NCBI RefSeq assembly: GCF_014280075.1 | Contig: NZ_CP047950.1 | Location: 1,984,001 to 2,048,000, forward strand | Reading direction: 5' to 3' | From: Synechococcus sp. A15-62 | GTDB taxonomy: Bacteria > Cyanobacteriota > Cyanobacteriia > PCC-6307 > Cyanobiaceae | Length of the DNA: 64,000 bases | Shown here: piece by piece, positions 70 to 29,150 of the stretch | Layout of the letters: every line of letters starts with the position of its first letter | Position numbering within the stretch: position 1 is the first letter of the stretch | The notes under the pieces: model-generated | The model's input: only the letters and a program-made list of their open reading frames with translations | Databases searched by the model: none | Told to the model about the DNA's origin: nothing | Translations under genes and position numbers: made by a program

Positions 70-1449
70 GTGATGACAAGCACCCCGACGAAACCGACGG
101 TCGCCTTCGCCCACCTGGGCTGCGAGAAGAATCGGGTGGACACCGAACACATGGTGGGGCTGCTGGCAGAAGCCGGCTACGGCGTCAGCACCGATGAAAG
201 CGATGCCGCCGTGGTGGTGGTGAACACCTGCAGCTTCATCCAGGACGCCCGCGAGGAATCGGTGCGCACCTTGGTGGGACTGGCAGAACAGGGCAAGGAA
301 TTAATCATCGCGGGATGCCTGGCCCAGCATTTCCAGGAGGAGTTGCTGGAGTCGATCCCGGAGGCCAAGGCCATCGTGGGAACCGGCGACTACCAGCACA
401 TTGTTGATGTGCTGCAACGGGTAGAAGCGGGGGAGCGGGTGAACCGCGTCAGCGCCGTGCCCACCTTTGTGGGTGACGAACACCTGCCCCGCCAGCGCAC
501 CACCGACCAGGCGGTGGCCTTCCTCAAGGTGGCCGAGGGATGCGATTACCGCTGCGCCTTCTGCATCATTCCGAAGCTGCGGGGGGATCAGCGCAGCCGA
601 CCGATCGAATCGATAGTGGCCGAAGCCCATCAACTGGCAGCGCAGGGGGTGCAGGAGCTGATCCTGATCAGCCAGATCACCACCAACTACGGCCTCGACC
701 TGTACGGCAAACCAAAACTGGCTGAGCTGCTGCGGGCCCTTGGGGAGGTGGAGATCCCCTGGATCCGGGTGCATTACGCCTATCCCACCGGGCTGACGCC
801 GGATGTGCTGGCCGCCTACCGGGAGGTGCCCAATGTGGTGCCCTATCTGGATCTGCCGTTGCAGCACAGCCACCCCGAGGTGCTGCGGGCCATGAATCGC
901 CCCTGGCAGGCGGATGTGAATGACCGGCTGCTGGATCAGATCCGCGAGCAACTCCCCGATGCGGTGCTGCGCACCACGCTGATCGTGGGCTTCCCGGGCG
1001 AAACCGAAGAGCACTTCCAGCACCTGATGAGCTTCCTCGAGCGCCAACGCTTCGATCATGTGGGGGTGTTCACCTTCTCGCCGGAGGACGGCACAGCAGC
1101 GGCCGACCTTCCCGATCGCGTCGATCCCGAAGTGGCTCAAGCCCGCAAGGATGCCCTGATGGCTCTGCAACAACCCATTTCGGCGGAACGGAACAGCCGC
1201 TGGGTGGGGCGCACCGTCGACGTGTTGATCGAACAGCACAACCCCCAGACCGGCGAGATGATCGGGCGCTGCGCCCGCTTTGCCCCTGAAGTGGATGGTG
1301 AAGTGCGGGTGCAACCCGGCGCCGAGGGGCAGCAGGCCGCACCGGGCAGCCTGGTGCCGGTGGAGATCACCGGGGCTGACATCTATGACATGAATGGACA
1401 GATCGTGGGAGCCCGAGCAATGGTGGCCGCAATCAGATCGGACGCTTGA
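70..1449 (+). CDS. rimO: Ribosomal protein S12 methylthiotransferase RimO
   Basis: Radical SAM enzyme that adds a methylthio group to an aspartate of ribosomal protein S12. The N-terminal UPF0004 domain carries Cys18 (LGCEKN), Cys54 (NTCSF) and Cys83 (AGCLAQ), which should bind the auxiliary [4Fe-4S] cluster. The radical SAM core has Cys158, Cys162 and Cys165 (GCDYRCAFC). A C-terminal TRAM domain follows from about residue 385. The length of 459 residues fits the family. The codon after the first ATG is also ATG, so the start could be 70 or 73. The stop overlaps the TTG start of the next gene (TTGA), suggesting translational coupling. A degraded copy of its last 24 codons reappears about 1.3 kb downstream. 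Confidence 0.95.
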
Positions 1450-2675
1450 ACCTTCGTTTGCTGTCGCGAAAGCGGCAGCGGCAGCTCTTCTTACTGACGT
1501 CCGGCATCAGCACAGCTGGATCCTTCGCCGGCATCACCGCCAAGGGCTGGATTCTTCTTGATGGCATGGGCGGGCCACTGGTATTGGCCTTGAACTTCGC
1601 GGCACTTTCGCTGCCGAGCCTGCTGGTGAGCGGAGTCGCAGGGGTGCGCACCGACAGGCTGGGATGCGAGCGGGTGCTGATCCAAGCGCAATGGGGGTTA
1701 TTGGCGGCGGCAATGCTGGGCGCGCTGGCGATCCCTCTGCTCGATGGTCAAGCCCAGGTACTGATGTTGCTCGTCAGCACCTTGCTCATGGGCGTTGCGG
1801 GTTCCTTCGAATCCACGGCCCGCAACAAGTACTGCGCCCTGATCATTGATGAACCAGACCAACTGGTGACCTACCTCACCAGCTTTTCGGTGGTGTTCAA
1901 CGTCGGCAAGTTGGTAGGTCCTCCGATCGGTGGCTGGCTTGTCGCTCTCACCGGTCCGTCCTGGGCACTAGGAATTGACGCAGCCAGCTACGTGCTGCCG
2001 ATTGCGACGGTTCTGTTTCTGTTGCATCCCGATCGGGACCGGGAACAACGCAGTTTTGATGGAGAACAGGGGAGCTTGCTGACGGCCTGGCGGCAAAGCG
2101 GATCGACCCTGCGAGGAGTGCTGAGCCTGACAGCCGTGTTGTGTCTGGTGGGCTTTTTCCACCCGGGGCTGGCTCCGTTGATGGCCGAAGCAATTCTTGG
2201 ATCAGATCCACGTGATCTCGGGATCTTCACCAGCGTGCTGGCGGCGGGGAGCATTAGCGGTGGTCTGGTGTTGCAACGCAACAGCGCACGCTTTTGTCGT
2301 TCGCCGTTTCTGACGATTGGCGGGTTCGGACTGATCACAGCGATCGCCCAACTCGGCATGGCGGCATCAACGGACGTGCCCGTGAGCCTGGCGATGGCCT
2401 TTTTGATCGGTGCAGGGACAGCAGGCTTACTCAGCAGTTGCAACCTGATCACCCAAGTGGGGGCCCCACAGGTCATCCGAGGACGAATGGGTGGACTGAG
2501 TCAGATCGCCTTCCTCGGCGGTGGTGGCCTCAGCGGTCTACTTGCAGCTGTGTTGGTTCTCGCAACCAACCTGACAACGACTTACGCCCTGACAGGCGGA
2601 GTCGGTGTGGTGCTGGCTGTGCTGTGGATCTGGAAACGAGGTCGGCAGCGGCTTGAGCCGATCAGATCAACATGA
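1446..2675 (+). CDS. MFS family permease, tandem copy 1
   Basis: Major facilitator superfamily transporter of 409 residues with about 12 hydrophobic segments. The family resembles the MFS_3 exporter-type proteins, but the substrate cannot be read from the sequence. It starts with TTG inside the rimO stop (TTGA). The next gene is a close paralog: long stretches such as [19 protein letters not shown] and [20 protein letters not shown] are shared. Synonymous positions in this copy look less GC-rich than in copy 2, so the copies have diverged for some time. Export of a metabolite or drug is a guess from the family only. Confidence 0.85.
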
Positions 2676-2779
2676 TGACCTTCTGCAGCCTGGAGAGGAC
2701 CAGGGCTGACGTTTTCAACCTCAGCGGGCTGATTGATGGTGCCCGCGCCATGGTGGCTGCAGCGAGACGCCAGGGTTGA
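2675..2779 (+). pseudogene. Remnant of the rimO 3' end between the MFS copies
   Basis: A 34-codon open frame whose last 24 codons align without a gap to the last 24 codons of rimO: shared residues include AD near the start, a central G and I, then GARAMVAA and a late R. The stop overlaps the TTG start of the second MFS gene exactly as the real rimO stop overlaps the first MFS gene. The rest of rimO is absent. I read this as the scar of a tandem duplication of a unit made of the rimO tail plus the MFS gene. Its ATG overlaps the previous stop (TGATG), so it might still be translated, but no function is implied. Confidence 0.75.
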
Positions 2780-3999
2780 CCCTTCTCAAACTGCGGCCTG
2801 AGCAACAACGACAGCTTTTTCTGATCGCATCCGGTGTGAGCGCAGCCGGGTCGTTTGCCGGCATCACCGCCAAGGGCTGGATTCTGATGAAAGGGGGCGT
2901 GGATCCCTTCGTGCTGGCGTTGAACTTCGCCGCTCTTTCACTGCCCACACTGCTGGTGAGTGGTCCAGCGGGGGTGCGCACCGATCGCGTGGGCTGTGAA
3001 CGGGTTCTGGTTCAGGCGCAATGGGCACTGCTGGCCGCCTCTGGCCTTGGGGCCCTGGCCATTCCCCTGTTGGAGGGGACGGCCCAGGTGCTGCTGCTGC
3101 TCTGCAGCACCCTTTTGGTGGGCATCGCCGGAACCTATGAGCTGACGGCCCGCAACAAATACTGCTCAATCCTGGTGGAGGAACCCGACAAGCTGGCGGG
3201 CTATCTCACCAGCTTTTCGGTGGTGTTCAACGTGGGCAAGCTGGTGGGCCCTCCGATTGGTGGCTGGCTGCTGGCGGCCACTGGCCCGGCCTGGGCCCTG
3301 GGCATTGATGCAGCCAGCTATCTGCTTCCCATCACCAGTGTGATGTTGCTGCTCAGCCCAAATCGGGACCGGGAAGTGCGCAGCAGCGGCGGTGAAGACG
3401 CCAGCCTGCGCAACGCCTGGCGCCACTGCGGCAGCACCCTGCAGGGGGTGCTCAGCTTCACCGCGGTTCTCTGTCTGATCGGGTTCTATCACCCGGGGCT
3501 GGCCCCGTTGATCGCCTTCGATCAGCTGGGGCCGAAGCCCACTGATCTGGGGCTGTTCACCAGCGTGCTGGCGGGCGGCAGCATCGTGGGCGGCCTGGTG
3601 CTGCAACGCAACAGCCAGCGTTTCTGCCGGCGCCCTTTCCTCACCCTGGGAGGCTTTGGCCTGATCACCGCCGTGGCCCAGCTGGGGATGGCCTGCACAA
3701 CGGGACCTGGCTTCAGCCTGGCGATGGCCTTCCTCATCGGAGCCGGCACAGCCGGACTCCTGAGCAGCTGCAACCTGATCAGTCAGATCGGGGCACCGCA
3801 AGTGATGCGCGGTCGGATGGCCGGCCTTAGCCAGATCGCTTTTCTGGGCGGAGGCGGGCTCAGTGGGTTGATTGTGGCCTTGCTGGTGATGACCACCAAC
3901 CTTTCGACGGCTTTCGCACTCACCGGGGGCCTCAGCGCTGCTGTGGCTGTGCTTTGGACTCGAAAGCGAGGCGCGAAGACGTTGGAACCGCTCAGATGA
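2776..3999 (+). CDS. MFS family permease, tandem copy 2
   Basis: Paralog of the preceding permease, 407 residues, about 12 transmembrane segments, aligned end to end with copy 1. It starts with TTG overlapping the stop of the rimO-tail remnant. Conserved blocks with copy 1 include [13 protein letters not shown] near the N-terminus, the ARNKYC motif and the [14 protein letters not shown] segment. The C-terminal tail (KRGAKTLEPLR) is basic and cytoplasmic by the positive-inside rule. The last 8 bases overlap the 3' end of the petL-like gene on the other strand. Substrate unknown. Confidence 0.85.
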   Translation: MTLLKLRPEQQRQLFLIASGVSAAGSFAGITAKGWILMKGGVDPFVLALNFAALSLPTLLVSGPAGVRTDRVGCERVLVQAQWALLAASGLGALAIPLLEGTAQVLLLLCSTLLVGIAGTYELTARNKYCSILVEEPDKLAGYLTSFSVVFNVGKLVGPPIGGWLLAATGPAWALGIDAASYLLPITSVMLLLSPNRDREVRSSGGEDASLRNAWRHCGSTLQGVLSFTAVLCLIGFYHPGLAPLIAFDQLGPKPTDLGLFTSVLAGGSIVGGLVLQRNSQRFCRRPFLTLGGFGLITAVAQLGMACTTGPGFSLAMAFLIGAGTAGLLSSCNLISQIGAPQVMRGRMAGLSQIAFLGGGGLSGLIVALLVMTTNLSTAFALTGGLSAAVAVLWTRKRGAKTLEPLR

Positions 4000-4084
4000 G
4001 CTTGATTCCCTTCAGCAGCTTGGTGAGCACAAAAGCCGTCACCAGACCGGAACCAACCAGGCCGAGATAGATGCCGACGCCCAT
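3992..4084 (-). CDS. petL: Cytochrome b6-f complex subunit 6 (PetL)-like, 30 residues
   Basis: A 30-codon minus-strand frame. It encodes one transmembrane helix (YLGLVGSGLVTAFVL) with a short N-terminus (MGVGI) and the basic end TKLLKGIKLI. Size, single helix and the terminal K-x-x-K-L-I type tail fit PetL, a small peripheral subunit of the cytochrome b6f complex in the thylakoid membrane. It ends in an 8-bp convergent overlap with the MFS gene. The ATG at 4084 is the only good start; upstream lies a 144-bp space shared with the radical SAM gene. Another single-helix photosynthetic subunit cannot be excluded. Confidence 0.65.
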   Translation of the reverse strand: MGVGIYLGLVGSGLVTAFVLTKLLKGIKLI

Positions 4085-4122
4085 GTGCAAGTACGGAGGT
4101 GACCACCATTAGATCACCCACT

Positions 4123-25597: not shown

Positions 25598-27262
25598 TCA
25601 GAACTTGAAGGTGGTCTGAACCAGGCCACCGAAGACTCCGAGGGACTTGTAGTCGCCGTTGACATTCTGGGTGTTGTCCCCGAGAGGACGGCTCAGCCAG
25701 TACAGAGCAGGGGTGATCTTGATGTTGTCGGTGACCTGGAAGCTGTACCAGAGCTCCATGGCATAACCACCATCCGCCACATCACCGCGGTCGACCTTAT
25801 AAACGAACTGAGGCTGACCCACGGCATAACCCAGGGCGTTGCCTTCGAGGAAGACATCGTTCCAGGTCAGACCCACCATCCAGCTGGCCATGGCTCGCTT
25901 GTTGGTGTTGTCGTTCCAGACATCGTTGCCGTTGAGGTAAGAGGCACCAACACCGGCGCTGATCGACGGCATCCAACCGGAGTCCTCAGGACGCCAGAAG
26001 CCGTGAAAAGACCAGCTGTGGCTATCGGCGTTGGTGCGCTCGTCAGCGTCACCGACGGTGCAAGGGGTGCCATAAGAGTCGTCCATGGCGAACCGGGTAC
26101 CGGTGCGGAACCTGGCACCACACTGGCCGTAGCGATAACCGGCGGCCAAGCCCCACTGCTGGTTGCCGAAGGCAATCTGCGTGGTGATGTTGCCTTCTGA
26201 GTTGTCGGTCATGAAGCCACCCGTGTTGGGGTTGCTATCACTAGCCTCACCGTAATCAGCCACATAACTAGCGGCCAATGTGAAATAAGGATCACCCTTC
26301 TCCATTTGCTTACGATTGCTGTAAAAGACACCAAAACCGCCGCCGGTCTCCTTGTTCCAGACGCCGGGGGTCCCCAGGGAACCACCAAAGAAATCAAGGA
26401 CCTTGTCGCCACCCTTGGCGTAGGCACTGGCCTGATAGCCCATCATCTCGGTGTTACGGGTCAGGGGGCCGACCTGGACGGTGAAGCCGTCACCAAGGGC
26501 GAAGCGGTAATAAAAACGATCTATTATTAGGAAATCAGCGGTATTAAAATAGACATTTAGACTCCCTGGCCAAAAAACAAATGGACGAGTTGCGAACGCA
26601 TTCGACATATTCCCGCCGCGCAGACGGGTGTAAAGCAGATCCTTGCCTCTGAAAGAGGTCTTCAGAGCAAGACGCAGGTCGTAGCTGAAGGAGAAGGCGC
26701 CGTAGTCAGCATTGTATTCAGCGCGTGCGCCCTTCTCGCCACCGGTCTTGAAGTCATCGCCAATGGCGCGGGTCGCACCTGCTACCCAGTTGCTTGCGCC
26801 ACTGATCTTGGTGGTGGTGGAGAACTGGGTTGATTCCAGTTCGCCAACGCGGGCCTCGAGGCCGTCAACACGACCCTTGAGGATGGCCAGCTCGGTTTCG
26901 AATTCCTTGAGCAGACGACGCAGCTCGTCGGTCACTTCAGTGATCTTGTCGAGGCAAGCGTTCAGCAGGGCAGCCGCTTCATAGCGGGTCATGGCCCGGT
27001 TGCCACGGAAGGTGCCGTTGGGGTAACCGGCGACGCAGCCATAGGTCTCCACCAGGTTGGCCAGAGCCTGATAGGCCCAGTCGGTGGGGTAGACGTCAGA
27101 GAACTGGGTGACGCTGGTGACCTGATAAGCGGAAGCCGCGTAATCAGAAACGCCATTGATGTTCAGCTCGGCTGCATTTGCTGCTGTGCTGTTGACAACA
27201 GCCAAAGGGGCCATCAGGCCAAGGGCAGCAGGAGCCACCAGCAGTTCTTGGAAAAGCTTCAT
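25598..27262 (-). CDS. SLH-domain OprB-family (iron uptake) porin, copy 1
   Basis: 554 residues. A signal peptide ([20 protein letters not shown], cleaved near ANA) is followed by an SLH domain ([36 protein letters not shown]). A coiled-coil spacer comes next ([18 protein letters not shown]), then a ~400-residue beta-barrel ending in Phe. The SLH binds peptidoglycan and the barrel sits in the outer membrane. The first 150 residues are almost identical to the neighbouring porin while the barrels differ. A local AT-rich patch (about 26500-26570) breaks the otherwise GC-rich barrel sequence. Confidence 0.92.
26811..27262 (-). repeat. Conserved 5' block shared with porin copy 2
   Basis: The coding block for signal peptide, SLH domain and coiled coil matches the corresponding block at 28485-28919, with long identical nucleotide runs across the SLH codons. 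The similarity falls off sharply after the segment encoding QFSTTTK. This is the pattern of gene conversion or of selection on the SLH part. Confidence 0.8.
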
Positions 27263-27488: not shown

Positions 27489-28919
27489 TCAGAAGGTGAA
27501 AGTGGTCTTAACAATGCCACCAAACACTTCGTCGTCAACGGAATCTTCGTCGTAGATGCCGAAGATTGCGGGAGTGATGGTGATGTTGTCAGACACAGCG
27601 AAGCTGTAGAAGGCTTCCCACATCAGGTTGCCCTCTGCATCATCCCAGCTGGGAGCTTCACCAATAGCAGCTCCGAGGGAGTTGCCTTCCATGAAAACAT
27701 CACTCCACTCAAGGCCCACATACCAAGAATTGATGTCTTCGGACTCGTCCTCGACGTCAGCAAATGAGTAACCAGTGCTGATGGAAGGGATGATGCCAGC
27801 TTCACCAGGTGCCCAAGCAGCAGCGACGCTGTAGCCGTGGCGATCAGCTGTTGTGGCAGCTGTTCCGATGGCCAGACCTGCATTTTGCTCGTAGGAATAA
27901 CCCAACTGAGCCAGGAAGCTGCCTTCGAAGACTTCGCCTTCGTAGAAAAGCTGCCAAGAGGAGGTGGTAGTTCCTGCGTCGGTACCAATACCAACAGAAG
28001 AATCGTTGCCGTCAACAGCAACGTAGTTACCACTCAGTTTGAAGCCGCTATCACCAAAGGTGTAGACAGCACCAAGACCGGAACCTGTGTAGGCCAGGTT
28101 ATTGGTTGTAGGTGCACCACCGTAGGTAAAGAAGTCGAGCAGGAGGTCAGAGGGGTAGAACGTTGCATACCCTGCATACATAGACGCATCGTCAGTACGG
28201 ACGATGGGACCAGCCGTGACACTCAGGGAGTCGCCGACAGGGAAGGTGTAGAACAAACGTCCAATCTTCACCGTGTCACCGCTGCTCATAGCGGTTTCAA
28301 CGAAGGTCAGGCCTGTGCCGAAGATCGAGTTGTCGAAATTACCGGAACGCAGAACAGTAGTCAGCTCATCCTTTCCGGTGAAAGAGGTAGCCAACTTCAG
28401 ACGCAAGTCGTAGTTGAGGGTTAGGGCCTCAGAGCCTTCGATTCCATCTTGAGCACCCATCACCCAAGCGGTGTAACCCTTGAGCTTGGTGGTGGTGGAG
28501 AACTGGGTTGCTTCCAGTTCGCCCACGCGGGCCTCGAGGCCATCAACGCGACCCTTGAGGATGGCCAGCTCGGTTTCGAATTCCTTGAGCAGGCGACGCA
28601 GCTCGTCGGTCACTTCAGTGATCCGGTCGAGGCAAGCGTTGAGCAGGGCAGCCGCTTCATAGCGGGTCATGGCCCGGTTGCCACGGAAGGTGCCGTTGGG
28701 GTAACCGGCGACGCAGCCATAGGTTTCCACCAGGTTGGCCAGAGCCTGATAAGCCCAGTCGGTGGGGTAGACGTCAGAGAACTGGGTGACGCTGGTGACC
28801 TGATCAGCGGAAGCCGCGTAATCAGAAACGCCGTTGATGTTCAGCTCGGCGGCATTGGCGCCGGAGGCCAGAAGGCCAAGGGCGGCAGGAGCCACCAGCA
28901 GTTGCTGGAAAAGCTTCAT
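27489..28919 (-). CDS. SLH-domain OprB-family porin, copy 2
   Basis: 476 residues. Signal peptide [20 protein letters not shown] (cleaved near ANA), SLH domain, coiled-coil spacer, then a ~330-residue barrel ending in a terminal TFTF. The barrel is shorter than in copy 1 and has different loops, rich in Gly/Asp/Ser. A longer frame from 29111 is rejected because MKLFQ begins the signal peptide and a ribosome site (GAGGA) lies just before it. Outer-membrane channel for small solutes or iron; the solute is not identifiable. Confidence 0.92.
   Translation of the reverse strand: MKLFQQLLVAPAALGLLASGANAAELNINGVSDYAASADQVTSVTQFSDVYPTDWAYQALANLVETYGCVAGYPNGTFRGNRAMTRYEAAALLNACLDRITEVTDELRRLLKEFETELAILKGRVDGLEARVGELEATQFSTTTKLKGYTAWVMGAQDGIEGSEALTLNYDLRLKLATSFTGKDELTTVLRSGNFDNSIFGTGLTFVETAMSSGDTVKIGRLFYTFPVGDSLSVTAGPIVRTDDASMYAGYATFYPSDLLLDFFTYGGAPTTNNLAYTGSGLGAVYTFGDSGFKLSGNYVAVDGNDSSVGIGTDAGTTTSSWQLFYEGEVFEGSFLAQLGYSYEQNAGLAIGTAATTADRHGYSVAAAWAPGEAGIIPSISTGYSFADVEDESEDINSWYVGLEWSDVFMEGNSLGAAIGEAPSWDDAEGNLMWEAFYSFAVSDNITITPAIFGIYDEDSVDDEVFGGIVKTTFTF
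28485..28919 (-). repeat. Conserved 5' block shared with porin copy 1
   Basis: Partner of the block at 26811-27262; near-identical over the SLH and coiled-coil codons. Confidence 0.8.
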
Positions 28920-28924
28920 TGAAT

Positions 28925-28933
28925 TCCTCACAC
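28925..28933 (-). promoter_or_regulatory. Possible Yfr1 small-RNA target site, porin copy 2
   Basis: On the minus strand GTGTGAGGA begins 14 nt before the ATG, and it is perfectly complementary to the conserved UCCUCACAC of Yfr1. It overlaps the likely Shine-Dalgarno (GAGGA), so pairing would block initiation. The established precedent is Yfr1 repression of som porin mRNAs in Prochlorococcus. Confidence 0.6.
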
Positions 28934-29060
28934 AGGAAATAGGCGCAACTACGCCATTTCCGAATTTTGAAGGCTGCTCACTGGCCCAACAACGCCGCTT
29001 GTGCCGGTCCTTACATCGACATGTATCAGCAAATACAGTTTTGAGCCTGGGTGCTTGCCA

Positions 29061-29096
29061 AAAACGATGCCCCCGAACGGAAATCCGTTTGGGGGC
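29061..29096 (-). terminator. Long hairpin, possible terminator of a short minus-strand transcript
   Basis: Arms 29069-29080 and 29085-29096 pair over 12 bp with one G-U, loop AAAT. On the minus strand the stem is followed by ATCGTTTTTGG, a modest U-tract offset by three bases. It lies just downstream of the 17-codon ORF and could end its transcript. A structured RNA element is the alternative. Confidence 0.45.
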
Positions 29097-29150
29097 TCTC
29101 GCCGGGTCCACTTTTGCCGCGGAACCGGATGATCAGTCAAAAGGCGCCGT

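Follow-up and report, generated by a model that had tools for sequence, protein, structure and literature searches.

The rimO locus of Synechococcus sp. A15-62 carries two adjacent genes for major facilitator superfamily (MFS) transporters, MFS1 and MFS2, with a stretch resembling the end of rimO between them. It raises the question of whether such a pair arose by duplication in place. The window, meaning the whole stretch of DNA that was analysed, is 64,000 nucleotides (nt) long and covers positions 1,984,001 to 2,048,000 of the forward strand of NZ_CP047950.1 (assembly GCF_014280075.1; genome G000). An annotation would readily call MFS1 and MFS2 a tandem duplication; the pair turns out to consist of xenologues. 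An insertion of foreign DNA, about 1.3 kb long, very probably took place beside the native MFS gene in the common ancestor of G000 and a second genome, G216, which would make this a case of gene capture and not of local duplication.

The gene for the 30S ribosomal protein S12 methylthiotransferase, rimO, occupies positions 70–1449 of the plus strand (NCBIfam TIGR01125 RimO, E 5e-172) and is followed on the same strand by MFS1 (1446–2675; Pfam MFS_3 and MFS_1), a rimO-like remnant of 24 codons and a stop (2705–2779), and MFS2 (2776–3999). A sequence-only reading of the window had described these four elements, and they were found where it placed them. The two transporters align over their full length, as that reading also held, with 73%–74% identity, and a search of their own genome returned them as the only two MFS copies. 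The TTG start of MFS1 overlaps the rimO stop, and that of MFS2 overlaps the stop of the remnant, each as TTGA. Downstream, petL (a cytochrome b6-f subunit; 3992–4090, minus strand; NCBIfam PRK11874 PetL, E 4e-8) is convergent with MFS2. Homologues were sampled from 400 genomes of the family and 34 of the genus. Nine close single-copy relatives (G225, G131, G197, G174, G061, G273, G234, G207, and G004) are referred to as clade A, and eight rows (G334, G112, G186, G267, G339, G162, G147, and G279) as clade B.

Compared without gaps, the remnant and the window's own rimO tail agree at 48 of 75 nt and, counting the stop, at 14 of 25 residues. Codon shuffles gave a mean of 24.1 and a maximum of 40 matches (n = 20,000), so the earlier claim that the 24 codons before MFS2 align gap-free with a rimO tail is well founded. 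In a scan of the window for repeated gene tails (open reading frames of at least 150 codons, repeat no more than 8 kb downstream on the same strand, 12,411 comparisons), the rimO/remnant pair ranked first with a score of 64, ahead of scores of 37 and 33. Matches to the nine live clade-A rimO tails are more numerous, at 63–67 of 75 nt for the window and 66–70 of 75 for G216, whose remnant shares 49 of 75 nt with its own rimO tail. The other 15 single-copy genus rows share 52–61 of 75 nt with the remnant. Clade-A rimO proteins terminate in AAARRQG or AAAKRQG, and the remnant terminates in AAARRQG; compared to clade-A tails, 19–20 of 25 residues are retained in the window and 22–23 of 25 in G216 (stop included). 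Because live clade-A tails match it better than its own rimO does, the remnant is best read as the displaced and decaying native rimO tail, and the live rimO tail as a foreign one. The sequence-only reading had taken the remnant for a decayed copy of the present rimO tail, which reverses the polarity; it had missed the better match to the rimO tails of other strains, as well as a petL remnant described below. It had also expected single-copy strains to lack this stretch. The close ones do carry it, as a live rimO end and not as a remnant.

Two further ideas about the remnant were rejected. Selection on it was considered for a run of 64 nt (2740–2803) that is identical in G000 and G216, but longer identical runs, of 127, 123, and 103 nt, occur elsewhere in the aligned region. 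A translated relay peptide was considered for a 35-codon frame (2672–2779) with an ATGA overlap at the MFS1 stop and TTGA at MFS2; this frame is disrupted in G216 by an extra base (a 1-nt indel) at the petL/rimO junction.

The live rimO gene is a mosaic, with a native body (70–1389) and a last ~60 nt that are foreign to clade A. The best clade-A identity stays at 94% as far as alignment column 1259 of 1320 (columns 1140–1259). Over the last 60 nt it falls to 67%, against a best clade-B identity of 83%. These last 20 codons, stop included (1390–1449, plus strand), have 38–40 matches in 60 nt to the nine clade-A tails and 41–50 to the eight clade-B tails. The present C-terminus reads AAIRSDA in the window and AAIRADA in G216. 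An ending of AAIR plus three residues is found in six of the eight clade-B rows (G334, G112, G186, G267, G339, and G162), and the remaining two, G147 and G279, have an AAAR ending. In a base-by-base comparison, the switch from native to foreign comes after positions 1360–1389 of the window, a stretch that is almost identical in native and foreign alleles, and thus constitutes the one homologous border by which homology-facilitated illegitimate recombination is recognized. Maximum identities are quoted because the rimO of G273 (locus L020) has a branch length of 10 in the rimO tree and depresses the clade-A means. Upstream of its last ~100 nt, that gene is out of register with its relatives, probably through an indel in the assembly. 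The table of rimO tails omits the named loci L003–L012, the truncated L021 and L040, and the overlapping L001, L002, L013, and L014; as a consequence, G329 and G324 are absent from the trees. Between G000 and G216, rimO has 13 differences in the 60 nt at 1090–1149 and none at 1267–1389, a sign of further recombination within the gene.

Phylogenetic trees place MFS1 and MFS2 apart. A 36-sequence MFS tree (mixture model) has a branch (support 96/91) with the other 26 genus sequences, both copies of MFS2 included, on one side and MFS1 of G000 and G216 outside. A 54-sequence tree (LG+G4) recovered the same split with support of 99/94, and MFS2 is nested in clade A. Approximately unbiased (AU) tests rejected MFS1 beside MFS2 (p 7e-52) and MFS1 inside clade A (p 4e-8). 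Grouping MFS1 with two sequences from the next genus was rejected (p 0.0027), and grouping it with clade B was just rejected (p 0.040). MFS1 does not evolve unusually fast: its branch lengths, summed from the shared node of the 36-sequence tree, come to about 0.36, against about 0.40 for MFS2. Third-position G+C is 0.68–0.69 in MFS1 versus 0.73–0.79 in the two MFS2 genes and four of the nine clade-A rows. There was no clear tract of gene conversion between MFS1 and MFS2 in steps of 90 nt, with DNA identity reaching at most 83%. Profile matches name broad MFS families alone, all NCBIfam matches for the MFS genes are below cut-offs, and a sequence search against solved structures turned up nothing stronger than E 0.19. 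In the search for a donor or vehicle, IMG/VR held no relative, and 50,697 phage records held a single distant match with 25% identity.

The right end of the insert is marked by a remnant of the 3' end of petL, 12 codons and a stop (2662–2700), located between MFS1 and the rimO remnant on the opposite strand. Its mean match to 26 genus petL ends is 29.0 of 39 nt; the shuffle maximum was 27.2, and none of 20,000 shuffles reached the observed value. It reads GATCAAC at the place where the nine clade-A petL ends read GATGAGC and is not of the clade-A type. Because this copy of the petL end stands behind MFS1, the repeated unit is rimO end–MFS–petL end. The sequence-only reading had proposed a tandem duplication of the rimO 3' end plus the MFS gene; both parts were indeed added, but local duplication fails on the AU test above. 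The foreign petL end meets native rimO at a junction (2698–2704) that the alignments indicate to be illegitimate. In G216 the join can be read as a putative 3-base overlap (CAC), and the two genomes differ in length by one base here. On the far side, native rimO seems to pick up again no later than the position at which it breaks off, and there is apparently no loss of native sequence. Everything between the two borders looks foreign to clade A and both flanks look native: the rimO body and MFS2 group with clade A, MFS1 lies outside the genus sample, and the intact petL shares 97%–100% of its residues with clade-A petL.

We searched the sampled genomes for other tandem pairs. An MFS match (E 0.001 or better in the family search) was present in 191 of 400 family genomes and 28 of 34 genus genomes, and two adjacent full-length copies occurred in 2 of the 191. 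In the loci of 69 genomes examined for rimO, MFS, and petL together, the adjacent pair was confined to G000 and G216. Two or more MFS matches were listed in 16 of the 191 family genomes, and candidate pairs among the genomes considered were rejected on several grounds. G334, G011, G044, G054, G081, and G181 have a single MFS gene beside rimO in the stretch taken; G125, G144, G254, and G317 have one copy plus distant matches of 25%–35% identity; and G077, G103, G274, and G337 have pieces resembling one broken copy. The contig of G324 ends within its MFS gene, and a second copy is possible there. In G054, the rimO-adjacent MFS gene (locus L082, 1131–2338) is in two pieces in different frames, from a frameshift or an assembly error. 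Four genus genomes with no MFS match (G249, G261, and G297, loci L114–L116, and G285) also have no good rimO match. The best rimO matches in the first three are 32%–34% identical and may be a MiaB-type relative, and G285 has none. G249 and G261 are 98%–99% complete, and rimO and the MFS gene may be genuinely lost in them.

The overlap between rimO and the MFS gene is widespread. Every one of the 67 oriented loci has an in-frame MFS start that overlaps the stop of rimO (42 TTGA, 25 GTGA), and all 26 genus loci have the TTGA type. The observation that both junctions of the window keep a TTGA overlap was accurate. The copied overlap is nothing out of the ordinary, because its presence at 67 of 67 loci means that it is not specific to the event; it is an old junction trait and no mark of insertion.

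A capture of the following kind very probably produced these features. A fragment of ~1.3 kb, carrying the ~20 final codons of rimO, MFS1 as a divergent MFS gene linked to rimO, and the 12 final codons of petL, would have been added to a native rimO–MFS–petL locus. At the left border, a homologous crossover in the conserved stretch ~60–90 nt before the rimO stop would leave rimO intact with a foreign tail. At the right border, the foreign petL end would be joined illegitimately to native rimO, and the last ~25 native rimO codons would be severed and left to decay ahead of native MFS2. Loss of native DNA would not be required. We suppose a single event in which DNA taken up by transformation came in either linear and homologous at one end, or circularised and integrated through one crossover; its donor would belong to a lineage outside the sample that branched off close to the base of the genus. 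In each carrier, a ComEC-family match lies in an open frame of 633 residues, and a DprA-family match is also present. ComEC matches occur in 23 of the 34 genus genomes; within clade A, the frame has 633 residues in G197, G061, and G004 and 464 residues in G131, is absent from G225, and survives as short or broken pieces in G174, G234, G207, and G273. Competence may have decayed repeatedly in clade A, given the missing or fragmentary ComEC of these last five genomes. The presence of ComEC and DprA is suggestive of natural transformation as a possible route and does not single out the carriers.

Several points weigh against capture. One-sided recombination in the laboratory usually removes resident DNA, and none is missing at the rimO–MFS locus. 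The donor of MFS1 was not found, its best match outside the two carriers being 78% identical. Donor signals are not fully concordant: the 60-nt rimO tail is nearest clade B, and MFS1 lies outside the whole genus sample. Clade B itself was defined only after its rimO tails had been inspected, and one of its members, G279, matches the foreign tail at 41 of 60 nt, barely above clade A. Synonymous divergence (dS) between G000 and G216 is 0.217 in the rimO body, twice the values for MFS1 and MFS2.

Other histories could give two MFS genes in a row. If the rimO tail and MFS gene, with the petL end, had been duplicated locally and had then diverged while the tail decayed, the added unit would have the gene order of the native locus and the remnant would resemble its own rimO tail; the order is indeed that of the native locus, and 48 of 75 nt do match. 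This explanation is nonetheless highly improbable, as sisterhood of MFS1 and MFS2 is rejected, dS between them is about 1.5 versus 0.1 between the carriers, and the remnant is nearer the live tails of clade mates than its own rimO. An artefact of assembly or annotation is scarcely credible, since G000 and G216 are separate genomes, each in one contig and about 0.1 synonymous changes per site apart, and both have the arrangement.

A duplication that predates the radiation of the genus has the MFS tree in its favour: MFS1 joins just outside the other 26 genus sequences, the position expected of an ancient paralogue. The extra copy would then have been lost elsewhere, each time by recombination between rimO tail and remnant, which would give back a neat single-copy junction. 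Seven or eight independent losses would be needed, as counted on the 36-sequence tree, and a remnant of that age should not be closest to clade A, as it is here (63–67 of 75 nt versus 52–61 in the other 15 single-copy rows); we consider this history quite unlikely. The tandem could instead have been formed by duplication in a donor lineage and imported whole, through homologous recombination that had one crossover in rimO and the other in the remnant or MFS2. The final sequence would be identical, and ordinary recombination would suffice in the carrier lineage. Such an import would require two events, and the tandem pair was seen in G000 and G216 alone (2 each among the 191 family genomes and the 28 genus genomes that have a match), which leaves it unlikely.

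Capture of a foreign fragment in the ancestor of the two carriers is dated to the interval after their lineage had parted from clade A and before G000 and G216 diverged. Between the two carriers, dS is 0.094 for MFS1 and 0.106 for MFS2, and dS between the MFS2 genes of G000 and G225 is 0.37. The dN/dS ratios of 0.125 for MFS1 and 0.139 for MFS2 indicate that both genes are under purifying selection. Because the two transporters are about 26% divergent and both under such selection, we suggest that the added MFS1 does something that native MFS2 does not. Further recombination at the locus is likely, since dS in the rimO body is twice that of the MFS genes and the differences between G000 and G216 are unevenly distributed along it.

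Events of this kind are known, and the locus preserves one of them well. Judged by titles and abstract openings, no literature treating this rimO–MFS locus was found. The closest natural parallel among the published cases seen is the displacement of effector ends and immunity genes at type VI secretion loci of Vibrio cholerae (PMC5361080). For that system, a mechanism akin to homology-facilitated illegitimate recombination is proposed, duplication is argued against by phylogeny, and Rhs C-terminal displacement is cited as a precedent (PMC5361080). There, as in the window, a foreign module lies beside a conserved anchor, and the old gene end and the downstream gene are pushed back and kept; unlike those toxin-immunity modules, the window has a housekeeping gene that stays functional with a swapped tail, and the added and retained genes are two versions of one transporter (PMC5361080). 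Homology-facilitated illegitimate recombination likewise has one homologous and one illegitimate border and adds about 1 kb; it leaves a short overlap, of 3–10 bases, at the illegitimate join, to which the putative 3-base overlap of G216 may correspond (PMC3240628). The amount deleted is generally similar to the amount gained, whereas the window locus has no apparent native loss; linear DNA may also circularise and enter by a single crossover, which fits equally well (PMC3240628). Merodiploids of pneumococcus resemble the window in that DNA uptake yields extra copies in a haploid genome, but they carry duplications of their own DNA of about 100–900 kb, made by unequal crossing-over between repeats, compared to about 1.3 kb of foreign DNA in the window (PMC3784515).

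The natural footprint of additive capture is unusually complete here: the insert can be read at either end, together with the native tail that it displaced and the native genes around it. Adjacent paralogues should not be called duplications before the flanking gene ends have been checked, and looking for a gene tail that has been displaced into the gap between related genes is a recipe for finding more. Tentatively, dense overlapping gene junctions in naturally competent picocyanobacteria could be docking sites where foreign alleles are added beside native ones. An added gene would then bring its own stop/start overlap and be translatable at once, and its neighbour would swap its tail. If general, the process would turn allele-like copies into tandem xenologues, which are routinely misread as gene duplications.

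Elsewhere in the window, the second-best score of the tail scan came from two minus-strand frames with alike ends, at 25598–25672 and about 27489–29132, one of which ends in VFGGIVKTTFTF. They resemble adjacent porin-type outer membrane proteins.

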